Source: Mesoflavibacter sp.
GTDB lineage: Bacteria > Pseudomonadota > Alphaproteobacteria > UBA8366 > Aestuariispiraceae
Reading direction: 5' to 3'
Length of the DNA stretch: 64,000 bases
NCBI GenBank assembly: GCA_017792345.1
Contig: CP051228.1
Coordinates: forward strand, 3,006,148 to 3,070,147
Under the pieces are notes generated by a model. That model made no database searches, was not told the origin of the DNA, and saw nothing but the letters and a program-made list of their open reading frames with translations. Numbering within the stretch: the stretch's first letter is position 1; the number at the start of each line of letters is the position of its first letter. A program made the position numbers and the translations under genes. Positions 2,004 to 29,038 of the stretch are shown here, piece after piece.

Positions 2004-3014
2004 ATGACAGACACGAACAAAACCTGGGTTCTGGCCGAACACCCAACGGGGATGCCGGATGCCGGCACCTTTCGCCTGGAAGAGCGTGCCATCCCCGATG
2101 TCGCGGATGGCCAGGTGCTGGGCCGGTCCCGCTGGCTGTCGGTCGATCCCTATATGCGCGGCCGCATTTCGAAACAGGCGAACTATGCCGGCGGCGTTTC
2201 GATTGGCGAGGCGATGCACGGCGCGGCCGTGGCCGAAGTGGTCGAAAGCCGGCATCCCGATTGGAAGCCGGGCGATCTGTTCGAAACGATCGGCTTCGGC
2301 TGGCGCGACTATGCCGCCGTGCCGGGCGACGGGCTGACGCGGGTCGACACCTCCATCGACGCGCCGGAGCACGCCTGGTTGAGCTATCTCGGCATGCCGG
2401 GCCTGACGGCGCTGATCGCCATGGACACGATCGGCAAGGTGAAAAAGGGGCAGACGGTTCTGGTATCCGCGGCGTCCGGCGCCGTGGGGCAGGTCGTTGG
2501 ACAGATCGCGAAGATTCGCGGCGCCCGGGCCGTTGCCGTTGCCAGCAGCGCCGAAAAGCTGGACTGGTGCCGTCAGATTGGCTTCGACGAAGGCATCAAC
2601 TACCGCACCGCGCCGAATCTCGGTCGCGCGGTGGCGGAAGCTTGTCCGGGCGGCGTGGATGTCTTCTTCGACAACACCGCCGGTCCGATCCATGACGCGG
2701 CGATGAACAATCTGGCTTTGGGCGCGCGGGTCATCATCTGCGGGACGATCAGCCTCGCCGGACAGTTCGAGGCCCCGGATATGGGGGAGCGTTTCCTGCG
2801 CAAGATTCTGGTCGCGCGGGCCCGGATGGAAGGCTTCCTGATCTTCGATCATGTCGCCAAGTATCCCGCCGCCCGTCGGCAGCTCGCACAATGGGCGTCG
2901 GAAGGCAAACTGACCTTCAAGACCGATATCCTGGACGGGATCGAACAGATGCCGACCGCCTTCCTGAACCTGCTGACATCGCAGAATTTCGGAAAGCAGG
3001 TCGTCCGGGTGTGA
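2004..3014 (+). CDS. NADP-dependent oxidoreductase, leukotriene B4 dehydrogenase/CurA-like
   Basis: A 336-residue MDR-family enzyme with a GGGAG box upstream of the ATG. It shows the family's SVDPYMRGR motif (about residues 46-54), a VSAASGAVGQVVGQ nucleotide-binding loop (154-167), an INYRT segment, and the VDVFFDNTAGPIHDAAMN region that follows the Rossmann core. The subfamily (prostaglandin/LTB4 reductase, curcumin reductase CurA) reduces alpha,beta-unsaturated ketones with NADPH. No zinc ligands are seen. It lies in the same direction as the DUF1192 gene with a 19-base gap. The exact substrate cannot be told; detoxification of reactive enones is the usual inference. Confidence 0.9.
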   Translation: MTDTNKTWVLAEHPTGMPDAGTFRLEERAIPDVADGQVLGRSRWLSVDPYMRGRISKQANYAGGVSIGEAMHGAAVAEVVESRHPDWKPGDLFETIGFGWRDYAAVPGDGLTRVDTSIDAPEHAWLSYLGMPGLTALIAMDTIGKVKKGQTVLVSAASGAVGQVVGQIAKIRGARAVAVASSAEKLDWCRQIGFDEGINYRTAPNLGRAVAEACPGGVDVFFDNTAGPIHDAAMNNLALGARVIICGTISLAGQFEAPDMGERFLRKILVARARMEGFLIFDHVAKYPAARRQLAQWASEGKLTFKTDILDGIEQMPTAFLNLLTSQNFGKQVVRV

Positions 3015-3044: not shown

Positions 3045-3310
3045 CTAGAGGGGCAGGCGTTTAAATGGAAGCGCCTGAGATCGGTATGGCGGGTTGTGGG
3101 TTAGGAGAGTCGGCGCAGGCGATGCGGGGCATCGTCCAGCCGTCGCGACGAATCCGACGGCCCGCCATACCGACCTTCGGCGCCGTTTTCGGTCCCCTGG
3201 ACCGCGTCGCGGCACGCTCCCGATGCCCCGCATCGCTTCGCGCGCCGCTCCTAGCCAGGAAACCGAAAACAGCGTCTCAGGTGCTTCCATTTAGATGCCT
3301 ACCCCTCTAG
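3045..3310. repeat. 266-bp nested inverted repeat (candidate MITE/REPIN-like or structured RNA element)
   Basis: The two ends are matching arms: CTAGAGGGG followed by AGGC and TAAATGGAAGC is read inward on both strands with only a few G/A or C/T differences. The two-fold alignment about the midpoint (3177/3178) needs no gaps. Blocks conserved in both halves include TAGGAG, GCGATGCGGGGCATCG and CGCGAC. Each half also folds on itself with a different stem: TCGGTATGGCGGG pairs with CCCGCCATACCGA on the left, and CGCCGTTTTCGGTCCCCTGG pairs with CCAGGAAACCGAAAACAGCG on the right. Both strands carry matching 81-codon frames, a by-product of the symmetry. No target-site duplication is obvious. It fills the whole gap between the two flanking genes. 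Confidence 0.75.
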
Positions 3311-3365: not shown

Positions 3366-4163
3366 ATGTCACAGACAGCATTATTGAAGGGGCGCGCAGC
3401 CCTGGTGACCGGATCGACCAGCGGGATCGGCCTCGCCATGGCGCGGGCGCTGGCGCTGGCCGGCGCAAATGTCATGCTGAACGGTCTCGGCGATCAGGGT
3501 GAAATCGACAAGACCCGCGCCGCCCTGGCGGCGGAAACTGGGCAGGATATCCGGTATCATGGCGCGAATATGCTGAAGGCGGAAGAGATCGCCGACGCCG
3601 TGCAGAAGACCGATGAGGCCTTCGGGTCGGTCGACATCCTGGTCAACAATGCGGGTATCCAGCATGTCAGCCCGCTGGAATCCTTCCCGGAAGACAAGTG
3701 GGATGCGATCATCGCGATCAACCTGACGTCCGCTTTTCATGCCACCAAGGCGGCGCTGCCGAAAATGCGGCGCGGCGGTTGGGGCCGAATCATCAATACC
3801 GCCTCCGCCCACGGATTGGTGGCCAGCGTCAACAAGGGCGCCTATGTCGCCGCCAAGCACGGCATTGTCGGCCTGACCAAGGTCACGGCGCTGGAAACGG
3901 CGGAAGAGCCGATCACCTGCAACGCGATCAATCCGGGCTGGGTCCGAACCGAACTGGTTGAACGCCAGATCGAAGCGAAAGCCGGCGATTTGGGGTGTTC
4001 GGTCGAAGACGCGGCCAAAGAGATCCTGTCCGAGAAGCAGCCATCGATGGAGTTCGTCACGCCCGACCAATTGGGCGGGTGCCTCGTCTTCCTGTGTTCC
4101 CCGGCGGCGGATCAGATTACCGGCATTTCCCTGCCGGTGGATGGCGGTTGGACCGCGCGATAA
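3366..4163 (+). CDS. 3-hydroxybutyrate dehydrogenase
   Basis: A 265-residue short-chain dehydrogenase with a TAGGAGA ribosome site. It has the cofactor motif TGSTSGIG (residues 15-22), NNAG (94-97) and the tetrad N119, S147, Y160 and K164. The 3-hydroxybutyrate-specific residues are also present: Q after NNAGI, H149 in SAHG, K in NKGAY, and W and Q in GWVRTELVERQIE. Expected reaction: reversible NAD-linked oxidation of (R)-3-hydroxybutyrate to acetoacetate in the cytoplasm, feeding on ketone bodies or stored polyhydroxybutyrate. It is monocistronic as far as can be seen; a terminator lies about 140 bases downstream. The gene is often called bdhA or hbdH. Confidence 0.92.
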   Translation: MSQTALLKGRAALVTGSTSGIGLAMARALALAGANVMLNGLGDQGEIDKTRAALAAETGQDIRYHGANMLKAEEIADAVQKTDEAFGSVDILVNNAGIQHVSPLESFPEDKWDAIIAINLTSAFHATKAALPKMRRGGWGRIINTASAHGLVASVNKGAYVAAKHGIVGLTKVTALETAEEPITCNAINPGWVRTELVERQIEAKAGDLGCSVEDAAKEILSEKQPSMEFVTPDQLGGCLVFLCSPAADQITGISLPVDGGWTAR

Positions 4164-17712: not shown

Positions 17713-18288
17713 ATGCGTATTCGTTACCTTATGGCTTCCCTCGCCTTGATTCTTGTGGCGTCCGTCACGCCGGCGACGGCCAATGATTTCGAGCCTCAAC
17801 TGAAGGCTTATCTGGAAGAAGCGACCTGGATTCAGGATCCTGCAGTCGTCGCGGCCATCGAGGCACAGAACGCCAAACATGCCGGTCTGGCAGATGCGGA
17901 TATCGACGCACTGGACAAGAAATGGCGGGCCGAGAAGGATTCCGGCAGCGGTCCGATGATTGCCGAGGTTCTGGGCAACGACCTGTCGAAATGGCTGATG
18001 CAAATCAAGGAAGACAGCAATGGCCTGATCGCCGAAGTCTTCGTCATGGACAACAAGGGTTTGAATGTCGGTCAAAGCGACCCGACCAGCGACTACTGGC
18101 AAGGCGATGAGGCCAAGTTCCAGCAAAGCTTCGGCGCGGGGCCGGATGGGGTTCTGATCGACGAGGTCGAATTCGACGATTCGTCAGAAAGCTTCATCAG
18201 TCAGGTGAGCCGCACGATCAACGACGCCTCAGGCAACCCTATCGGGGCGGTAACGATCGGCATTAATGTCGAGAATCTTGGAAACTAG
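17713..18288 (+). CDS. Secreted PDC (Cache-like) sensor domain protein
   Basis: A 191-residue protein starting MRIRYLMASLALILV after a GGAGGAG box. It has a Sec signal peptide with likely cleavage after ATA (about residue 23). The rest is one periplasmic PDC/Cache-type domain: a helix with ATWIQDPAVVAAIEAQN, the central IAEVFVMDNKGLNVGQSDPTSDYWQGDE core, and a final SGNPIGAVTIGINVE strand. No membrane span or signalling domain follows, so it is a free ligand-binding domain. Such stand-alone PDC proteins are known in Alphaproteobacteria. Its divergence from the chemoreceptor suggests it may bind a ligand and dock onto that receptor. Confidence 0.85.
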   Translation: MRIRYLMASLALILVASVTPATANDFEPQLKAYLEEATWIQDPAVVAAIEAQNAKHAGLADADIDALDKKWRAEKDSGSGPMIAEVLGNDLSKWLMQIKEDSNGLIAEVFVMDNKGLNVGQSDPTSDYWQGDEAKFQQSFGAGPDGVLIDEVEFDDSSESFISQVSRTINDASGNPIGAVTIGINVENLGN

Positions 18289-18320
18289 ATATACGCGGCA
18301 CTTTCCTGGTGTCCAGCGAG

Positions 18321-18349
18321 CGCCGGTCCATTACTGGGCCGGCGTTTTT
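18321..18349 (+). terminator. Rho-independent terminator after the PDC-sensor gene
   Basis: CGCCGGTCC and GGGCCGGCG form a GC-rich stem (one G-T pair) around ATTACT, followed by TTTTT at 18345-18349. It lies about 35 bases past the stop codon. Confidence 0.85.
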
Positions 18350-18457
18350 GCTGCCGGGTCCCGAAAACTGTGCCAATTCGCCCCTTGTTCGTTATTCTTG
18401 TTTGCGGAAAATCGTTGAAAACAGAACATGATCCCGGTCCTCAGGGGGAAACGTATA

Positions 18458-20356
18458 ATGGGAAAACTGGACGACATCTACCGGCGCAGCATCGACGACC
18501 GCGAAGGGTTCTGGGCGGACGCCGCAGGCGAACTGGAATGGCACAAGCGCTGGGACAAGGTGCTGGACGACAGCCGTGCCCCCCATTTTTATCGCTGGTT
18601 CGACGGCGCGGAATGCAACACCTGCTACAATGCCCTCGACCGCCATGCCGACGGCGGGCGCGGCGATCAGGCGGCGATCATCTATGACAGTCCGATCACC
18701 GGCCGGCAAAAGCGGATCACCTATTCCGAGCTACGGGATAAGGTCGCGCGGTGTGCCGGGGTCCTGACCGAACTCGGTATCGAAAAGGGCGACCGGGTCA
18801 TCATCTACATGCCGATGATTCCGCAGGCCGCCGTCGCCATGCTGGCCTGCGCGCGGATCGGCGCGGTCCATTCGGTCGTCTTCGGCGGCTTCGCCTCCAA
18901 CGAATTGGCGACGCGCATCAAGGACGCCCGTCCCCGCGCGATCCTGACCGCGTCCTGTGGGATCGAACCGGGCCGCGTCATCCCCTATCAGCCATTGGTC
19001 GAAGGCGCATTGGACCTCGCGCCCGGTATTGTCGAATCCATCGTCGTGACCCAAAGGGATGAGGCCGCCTGGACCCTGCGGGACGGCCGGGACCATGACT
19101 GGAAGGCAGCTCTGGATGCGGCTGCTCCGGCGGCCTGCGTGCCGGTCAAGGCGACCGATCCGCTGTATGTGCTCTACACGTCCGGCACGACAGGACAGCC
19201 GAAGGGCGTCGTGCGCGACAATGGGGGCCATATGGTGGCGCTGAAATGGTCGATGAAGAACGTTTACGACGTCGATCCGGGCGAAATCTTCTGGGCGGCG
19301 TCGGATGTCGGCTGGGTGGTCGGGCATTCCTATATCGTCTATGCGCCGCTGCTGCATGGCTGCACGACCGTTCTGTTCGAAGGTAAGCCGGTCGGCACGC
19401 CCGATGCCGGGACCTTCTGGCGCGTGATCGCCGATCATGGCGTCACGACCTTGTTCACCGCGCCCACGGCCTTCCGCGCGATCAAGAAGGAAGATCCGCA
19501 GGGCAAGCTGATCGGCCAGTACGATCTGTCGAAATTCCGCGCATTGTTCCTGGCCGGTGAGCGCTGCGACCCGGACACGCTGGCCTGGGCGCAAGACAAG
19601 CTGAAGGTGCCGGTCATCGATCATTGGTGGCAGACGGAAACCGGCTGGCCCATGGCGTCGAACTGCATGGGGATCGAACCGCTGCCGGTCAAGCCGGGTT
19701 CGCCGACCCGTGCCGTTCCGGGATATGACGTCCAGATCATCGACGAGAAAATGAACGAGGTGCCGCGCGGCCAGATGGGCGCGATCTGCGTCAAACTGCC
19801 GATGCCGCCGAGTTGCCTGCCGACGCTGTGGAATGCGGATCAGCGCTTCATCGACAGCTACCTGGCCGATTATCCCGGTTTCTATAAGACCGGCGATGCC
19901 GGATACATGGACGAAGACGGCTATATCTATGTCATGTCGCGCATCGACGATGTGATCAATGTCGCCGGACACCGCCTGTCCACCGGCGCGATAGAGGAAG
20001 TGTTGGCATCCCATCCCGATGTCGCGGAATGCGCGGTCATCGGGGCTGAGGACGCCCTGAAAGGTCAGTTGCCGGTCGGGTTCCTGGTTCTCAAGGCAGG
20101 GGTCGATCGCGACGATGCGGAAATCGTGACGGAAGTGGTCAAGCTGGTCCGGGATCAGATCGGCCCTGTCGCGGCCTTCAAGAACGCCACCGTCGTGAAG
20201 CGCCTGCCCAAGACCCGGTCCGGCAAGATCCTGCGCGGCACCATGGCCTCGATCGCAGACGGCAAGGACTTTAAAACGCCCGCGACGATCGACGATCCGG
20301 CGATTCTGGATGAGATCGCCGAAAACCTGAAGGGGATCGGCTATCCAAAAGGATAG
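18458..20356 (+). CDS. prpE: Propionyl-CoA synthetase
   Basis: The 632-residue AMP-forming acyl-CoA synthetase starts MGKLDDIYRRSIDDREGFW after a GGGGGAAA box. An earlier in-frame ATG ten codons upstream lacks a good ribosome site. The AMP-binding motif YTSGTTGQPKG lies at about 237-247. The catalytic lysine is in SGKILRGT near residue 590. The VFGGFASNEL segment and the WWQTETGWP motif match the acetyl/propionyl group. PrpE differs from Acs by its shorter length and the N-terminal YRRSI..R..FW block, both seen here. It activates propionate (and some acetate) in the cytoplasm. No methylcitrate or methylmalonyl pathway genes are adjacent. Confidence 0.9.
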   Translation: MGKLDDIYRRSIDDREGFWADAAGELEWHKRWDKVLDDSRAPHFYRWFDGAECNTCYNALDRHADGGRGDQAAIIYDSPITGRQKRITYSELRDKVARCAGVLTELGIEKGDRVIIYMPMIPQAAVAMLACARIGAVHSVVFGGFASNELATRIKDARPRAILTASCGIEPGRVIPYQPLVEGALDLAPGIVESIVVTQRDEAAWTLRDGRDHDWKAALDAAAPAACVPVKATDPLYVLYTSGTTGQPKGVVRDNGGHMVALKWSMKNVYDVDPGEIFWAASDVGWVVGHSYIVYAPLLHGCTTVLFEGKPVGTPDAGTFWRVIADHGVTTLFTAPTAFRAIKKEDPQGKLIGQYDLSKFRALFLAGERCDPDTLAWAQDKLKVPVIDHWWQTETGWPMASNCMGIEPLPVKPGSPTRAVPGYDVQIIDEKMNEVPRGQMGAICVKLPMPPSCLPTLWNADQRFIDSYLADYPGFYKTGDAGYMDEDGYIYVMSRIDDVINVAGHRLSTGAIEEVLASHPDVAECAVIGAEDALKGQLPVGFLVLKAGVDRDDAEIVTEVVKLVRDQIGPVAAFKNATVVKRLPKTRSGKILRGTMASIADGKDFKTPATIDDPAILDEIAENLKGIGYPKG

Positions 20357-28213: not shown

Positions 28214-29038
28214 ATGACCGAGACCCTGACGCGCCCCCTTATCCTCATCGGCTGCGGCAAGATGGGCGGGGCGATGCTGAACGGTTGGCTGGAATCCGGC
28301 ATCGCGGCGGGCGGCGTCTATGTCGTGGACCCGATGGGTGGGGGCCCGTTCAAAGGACGTGCGGGGGTGACCGTCGTTGCGGGGGCCAATGAGGTTCCGG
28401 ACGATCTGAATCCCGAAGTCATCGTACTGGCGGTCAAGCCGCAGCAGATGGATGCCCTCCTGGCCGATTACCGCCGCTTCACGGGGCCGTCCTGCCTGTT
28501 CGTGTCCATCGCGGCCGGGAAGACCATCGGCTATTTCGAAAAGCATCTGGGGTCGGATGCGGCCATCGTCCGGGCGATGCCGAACACCCCCGCCGCCATC
28601 GGCCAGGGAATCACGGTCGCCTGTCCGAACGTTAATGCGGACGAAGGTCAGGTGGCGCTGGCGGAACGCCTGCTGCGGGCCGTCGGAGAGGCTGCCAGCG
28701 TTACGGACGAAGAATTTATCGACGCCGTCACGGCGCTGAGCGGCGGGGGCCCGGCCTATACCTTCCTGTTGATGGAGTGCATGGCGAAGGCCGGGGCGGC
28801 AGCCGGTCTGCCGGAGGACCTGGCGGCGCGCCTGGCCCTGGTCACGGTCGCGGGTGCCGGGCAACTGGCCCTCGCCAGCGACGAGCCGCCGGCAAAGCTG
28901 CGCGAGAACGTGACCAGCCCGGGCGGCACCACCTTGGAAGCGCTTAAAGTTCTGATGCGCGACGGGGATGGCCTGCCCGATTTGATGGTGGAAGCCATCG
29001 CCGCTGCCACACGGCGGTCCAAGGAATTGGGCGGTTAA
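28214..29038 (+). CDS. proC: Pyrroline-5-carboxylate reductase
   Basis: A 274-residue enzyme with an AGGAGAG site. The Rossmann motif LIGCGKMGGAML is at residues 9-20. The RAMPNTPAAIGQG motif is near 118-130. The C-terminal signature has ALSGGGPAYTFLLMECM and LRENVTSPGGTTLEAL. It reduces 1-pyrroline-5-carboxylate to proline with NAD(P)H in the cytoplasm. The neighbours are a TerB-like gene upstream and an enolase-superfamily enzyme 93 bases downstream; the latter raises a weak possibility that it acts on pyrroline-2-carboxylate in hydroxyproline breakdown. Confidence 0.92.
   Translation: MTETLTRPLILIGCGKMGGAMLNGWLESGIAAGGVYVVDPMGGGPFKGRAGVTVVAGANEVPDDLNPEVIVLAVKPQQMDALLADYRRFTGPSCLFVSIAAGKTIGYFEKHLGSDAAIVRAMPNTPAAIGQGITVACPNVNADEGQVALAERLLRAVGEAASVTDEEFIDAVTALSGGGPAYTFLLMECMAKAGAAAGLPEDLAARLALVTVAGAGQLALASDEPPAKLRENVTSPGGTTLEALKVLMRDGDGLPDLMVEAIAAATRRSKELGG

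Follow-up and report, generated by a model that had tools for sequence, protein, structure and literature searches.

A mobile twin-hairpin element that duplicates TA and recurs across Alphaproteobacteria

RUP (with IS630-Spn1), Correia/NEMIS and ERIC are non-coding, TA-targeting miniature inverted-repeat transposable elements (MITEs) that have terminal inverted repeats and form stable folds in transcripts, and mobilisation in trans has been proposed for RUP (PMC2229807). The CIR repeats of the alphaproteobacteria Caulobacter and Brucella consist of two stem-loop arms and a linker (PMC2229807), and REP sequences tagged with CGTC or GTAG are palindromes of 20–40 bp with an unpaired tag (PMC3733652). 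Here we analyse an element in a 64,000-nucleotide stretch of an alphaproteobacterial genome (the window) whose behaviour as a mobile unit resembles that of RUP or ERIC. It is probably a non-autonomous MITE that inserts at and duplicates TA, with swapped ends around a conserved core of two self-folding hairpins that face each other.

The element lies between a gene for a zinc-type oxidoreductase (2004–3014, plus strand; Pfam ADH_N_2 and ADH_zinc_N), whose stop precedes it by 31 bp, and a short-chain dehydrogenase gene (3366–4163, plus strand; Pfam adh_short_C2). The original prediction had marked 3045–3310; the element proper occupies 3048–3307, 260 bp bounded by the TA target duplication at 3046–3047 and 3308–3309. 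Its left outer arm, GAGGGGCAGGCG...CTGAGA (3048–3080, plus strand), is a terminal inverted repeat that pairs with the right outer arm (3275–3307, minus strand), and the arms are indeed inverted copies, 89% complementary across 36 nt when taken as 3045–3080/3275–3310. Within this outer stem, R1, a covariance model of one hairpin unit, recognises a left unit at 3079–3175 on the plus strand (86.5 bits, E = 4.5e-19) and a right unit at 3179–3276 on the minus strand (97.3 bits, E = 8.2e-22). The left hairpin has the stem TCGGTATGGCGGG/CCCGCCATACCGA (3081–3093/3161–3173) and the loop motifs TAGGAG (3102–3107) and GCGATGCGGGGCATCG (3119–3134); its counterpart has the stem CGCCGTTTTCGG/CCGAAAACAGCG (3181–3192/3263–3274) and the loop motifs CTCCTA (3248–3253) and CGATGCCCCGCATCGC (3221–3236). 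Both are joined at the centre of symmetry, CC-TTC-GG (3174–3180), which takes the form of a CC-NNN-GG or CCC-NNN-GGG linker in most copies. All sequence blocks quoted in the original prediction are present where it placed them. A weak match to the hairpin model at 28429–28528, inside a coding ORF, was taken as chance. Small ORFs of 81 aa on both strands were rejected as coding because one-base insertions and deletions in the terminal loop differ among copies, which argues against a kept reading frame.

The element is mobile and non-autonomous, of the MITE type: mobility follows from clean empty sites with a single TA at five loci. We joined the flanks of five insertions without the element and searched genomes of the same genus, and each insertion, including that in the window, had a single TA at the empty site and TA on both sides of the element at the filled site. 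The window's site is empty in G003 (...GCAAGT-TA-GGGTCTG...), three of the five loci have a second empty relative, and four of the five sites are polymorphic between G004 and G005. One insertion lies at the TA of a TAG stop, and the C terminus of the protein reads ...AAEKVKSA with or without the element. The 4.9-Mb genome of the window contains five near-full copies that are 88–89% identical, the window copy included, together with fragments. The copy at 722978 lacks most of the right half, shorter remnants lie at 3421303, 3910847 and 1080659, a 165-bp single-unit copy (G000:C1:74119–74283; L026) is a chimera of both halves joined at the shared 16-bp GCGATGCGGGGCATCG block, and mini-palindromes consist of the outer arms alone. 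Other copies also have terminal inverted repeats, and the multicopy state, the TA duplication, a length below 300 bp and the lack of coding capacity agree with the predicted dispersed, MITE-like element. Nesting also occurs, with one subfamily inserted into another where the TAGGAG loop motif supplies the TA (L195, 1–640; L164, 2536–2853). Many copies in G004, G005 and G040 lie at contig ends, indicating that these repeats break assemblies of metagenome-assembled genomes (MAGs). Near-perfect 28-bp palindromes, TAGAGCCTGATGATATCATCAGGCTCTA, at G007:C2:75879–75906 and C9:106329–106356 are apparently two fused element ends without a core.

Relatives of the element are widespread: of 385 alphaproteobacterial genomes sampled, R1 finds them in 44, from about 30 families, so the element is not unique. 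The matches are mostly facing pairs 102–107 bp apart, and element length is nearly always 260–274 bp and is 261–274 bp in distant families; the 266-bp sequence used directly as a query matches 20 of 59 relatives. A pattern scan returned Marivibrio halodurans, Thalassospira and numerous MAGs of Rhodospirillales and other alphaproteobacteria, along with some matches elsewhere that are due to chance. The ends vary among distant families and include TAGAGC, TAGTGTGG, TAGTGTCC, TAGTACC, TAGTGG, TAGGGTCC, TAGGAGCC, TAGCCCGC and ATACC. Plasmid and phage collections held no match to the core of the window element, and one partial match, in Terrarubrum, belongs to a different subfamily. The openly accessible literature searched gave no account of this family, which is apparently undescribed in these sources and may have been described elsewhere; what comes nearest are accounts of TA-ended MITEs in general, of the two-armed CIR repeats (PMC2229807) and of the tagged REP families (PMC3733652).

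All copies follow a common plan in which an outer stem of about 33 bp encloses two independent, facing hairpins of about 97 nt. Each half of the window element folds on its own with a stem that differs from that of the other half, as anticipated, and the whole folds with z-scores of −12.5 (DNA) and −13.6 (RNA) against dinucleotide shuffles, none of 200 shuffles being as low. RNAalifold on 26 divergent copies recovered the outer stem and both hairpins as 92 pairs with 90% of cells Watson–Crick, compared with 22–29% for slid partners and 55% for shuffles. At least two Watson–Crick types occur at 81 of these pairs and at least three at 57, extending to the whole class the earlier proposal that stem sequences change while pairing is retained; homologous copies keep the inner pairings. 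A conserved unit reads GA...TAGGAG...GCGATG-YGGNN-CATCG...AAGC...CGACG...CC. The original prediction also suggested two inverted copies of one 133-bp unit, and this stands for the inner core and loops, which are 77% alike within one element, but not for the two hairpin stems, which in the elements examined are 27% identical, the level of chance. Because the stems are unrelated within an element, two hairpins are favoured over one long palindrome; the two-hairpin fold has 88% Watson–Crick cells against 62% for a single long hairpin, although minimum-energy folding of the window copy gives one long hairpin. The two-fold plan is an architecture that is old and shared, not the outcome of a recent duplication. 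L109 (MAG EAC21; element at about 2062–2325, minus strand) carries its right hairpin in inverted orientation inside the stem, with TTAGGAG on the other strand, which suggests inversions across the hairpin stem.

Mismatches in the hairpins are strongly asymmetric between strands. If a sequence evolves as a double strand, every G.T on one strand is an A.C on the other, and both are expected at equal frequency. Read in the TAGGAG orientation, the hairpins of 49 units contain 114 G.T and 14 A.C cells (44:6 and 70:8 by half), and an ungapped recount, made on 69 deduplicated units that represent more families, gave 45 and 12; these counts are cells from related sequences and not independent events, so sign-test values overstate the certainty. 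The outer arms have 28 G.T and 20 A.C, with no such asymmetry. The hairpins, unlike the arms, therefore appear to have been under selection as single strands. This pattern also bears on whether the pairing has any function, as template switching in quasi-palindromes could keep hairpins near-perfect in copies that are passive fragments of an old MITE. Template switching is an established process that would yield compensatory changes and may partly account for the perfection of the hairpins, and the chimeric copy L026 and the inverted hairpin of L109 show that such events occur. It leaves unexplained the loops conserved in both halves across about 30 families, the constant total length and the excess of G.T over A.C, and we consider functionless pairing improbable.

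Selection on a single strand could act on RNA or on DNA. Transcripts that enter from either side would meet a hairpin in the TAGGAG orientation first, so the element might serve as a 3′-untranslated cassette that stabilises, processes or terminates mRNA. Tolerance of G.T (G.U in RNA) in the hairpins only would fit such a role, as would the position of neighbouring genes, about half of whose 3′ ends (28 of 53) have the stop codon at −4 to +1 of the element edge; this figure comes from a home-made gene caller that would also count C-terminally truncated genes, and it is a lead. The same caller places many copies upstream of gene starts, which speaks against the cassette, as does the lack of an Rfam family: a search of the elements and the window with Rfam covariance models gave no match within the element. 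Where single-hairpin copies lie beside co-oriented or single-tail genes, the retained unit is sense in two and antisense in five, too few to decide. An RNA role is plausible but not favoured by the solitary hairpins, and on balance we regard it as somewhat unlikely. Just as likely, and held with the same reserve, is that the hairpins are single-stranded DNA or cruciform sites bound by a factor of replication, repair or transposition that aids spread. DNA too tolerates G.T mispairs better than A.C, each strand carries one unit in the correct orientation, and the structure is retained although the ends are replaced. Against this, DDE cut-and-paste transposition needs no single-stranded DNA, and no candidate protein was found.

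The ends of the element resemble those of TA-targeting insertion sequences (IS), which we sought as de novo inverted repeats around transposases. In the same genus, an IS630-family IS of 1070 bp with HTH_Tnp_IS630 and DDE_3 domains lies at about 17851–18920 of G005:C7 (L276, 1399–2468), its transposase split across several frames; its ends, TAGAGCATGATGATAT.../TAGAGCATGATGATATTAGACG, match those of Marivibrio elements at 15 of 18 positions, a level reached by 0 of 5000 shuffles. This IS630-type match concerns TAGAGC-type ends in another genus of the family. In G374, an IS5-type IS has ends TAGGGTCCGTACTCA that resemble those of the TAGGGTCC subfamily in G335; the shuffle counts were 13 of 5000 at one end and 76 of 5000 at the other. 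The covariance model detects no hairpin unit at the IS630 and IS5 loci, so the core does not come from the IS analysed here. The ends of the element seem to have been taken over from TA-targeting IS, and the core looks to be of other origin. No IS with the exact ends of the window element was found, and the window genome has no detectable IS630 (DDE_3) transposase and no DUF4096/IS5-type transposase. A paired-end spacing search of G022 and other loci gave no IS-sized element with a transposase and the same ends: in G022, 28 paired ends span 262–265 bp and 7 span 138–195 bp. A 1.3-kb end pair in L199, considered as an IS, encloses a full element and a cyclase-like gene and was judged to be chance.

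These results weigh against the mobilisation by a REP-type transposase put forward in the original prediction. Such a reading would make the element REPIN-like, its single-stranded DNA hairpins serving as substrate for a REP-associated tyrosine (Y1/HUH) transposase. In its favour are the inverted pair of hairpins, whose loop motif is conserved, and the excess of G.T over A.C, which fits single-strand recognition. Yet Y1_Tnp (PF01797), and with it any RAYT, had 0 matches in the window genome, the ends match IS630- and IS5-type inverted repeats, and the size is unlike that of REP or REPIN sequences. TA duplication at five sites largely refutes the reading; it is typical of DDE transposases, leaving mobilisation of the REP type unsupported and, in our estimate, very improbable.

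In the reading that we prefer, a TA-inserting MITE with swapped ends, the outer arms are terminal inverted repeats, most likely used in trans by TA-targeting DDE transposases, with an IS630-type transposase presumably serving the TAGAG and TAGAGC end types. The facing-hairpin middle, with its conserved internal loops, persists throughout the class despite replacement of the ends. Each hairpin would be under selection for folding within its own strand, as RNA or single-stranded DNA, in the TAGGAG orientation, and its loops may bind a factor. A bolder version, which we offer tentatively, is that the core is the heritable unit, a class-wide structured module that has acquired its ends from various TA-targeting transposons, of IS630 type and possibly of IS5 type and others. 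It would thus have ridden on successive transposase families and been retained through the binding of its single-stranded hairpins to a conserved factor of the host or the element. If the core is functional, a widespread nucleic-acid structure is missing from Rfam, and it can be tested whether MITEs swap transposases and how a palindromic element avoids forming a long unstable palindrome.

Compared with known systems, the element shares its non-coding nature, terminal inverted repeats and TA duplication with RUP, Correia/NEMIS and ERIC, but is about twice as long and carries two independent conserved hairpins within the outer stem. The CIR repeats, as described, share the two-armed plan but differ in their length of about 110 bp, their GANTC motifs and the lack of a known mechanism of mobility. 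REPIN/REP–RAYT elements are likewise dispersed and contain an inverted hairpin pair, but the element has no Y1 transposase, duplicates TA and is much larger; with a unit of about 97 nt inside a 260-bp element, it also falls outside the definition of CGTC- or GTAG-tagged REPs. Sinorhizobium palindromes (L242 and L244), which we take to be RIME-like and perhaps RIME elements, have TAGAGC...GCTCTA ends and the TCAGGTGGAATCACCTGA arm palindrome in common with the window family, but are about 105 bp long and lack the twin-hairpin unit. Known MITEs depend on conserved ends around a middle that is filler. In this element the ends vary freely, and it is the middle that is conserved, in about 30 alphaproteobacterial families, with covariation of unusual strength and a wobble signal specific to one strand.
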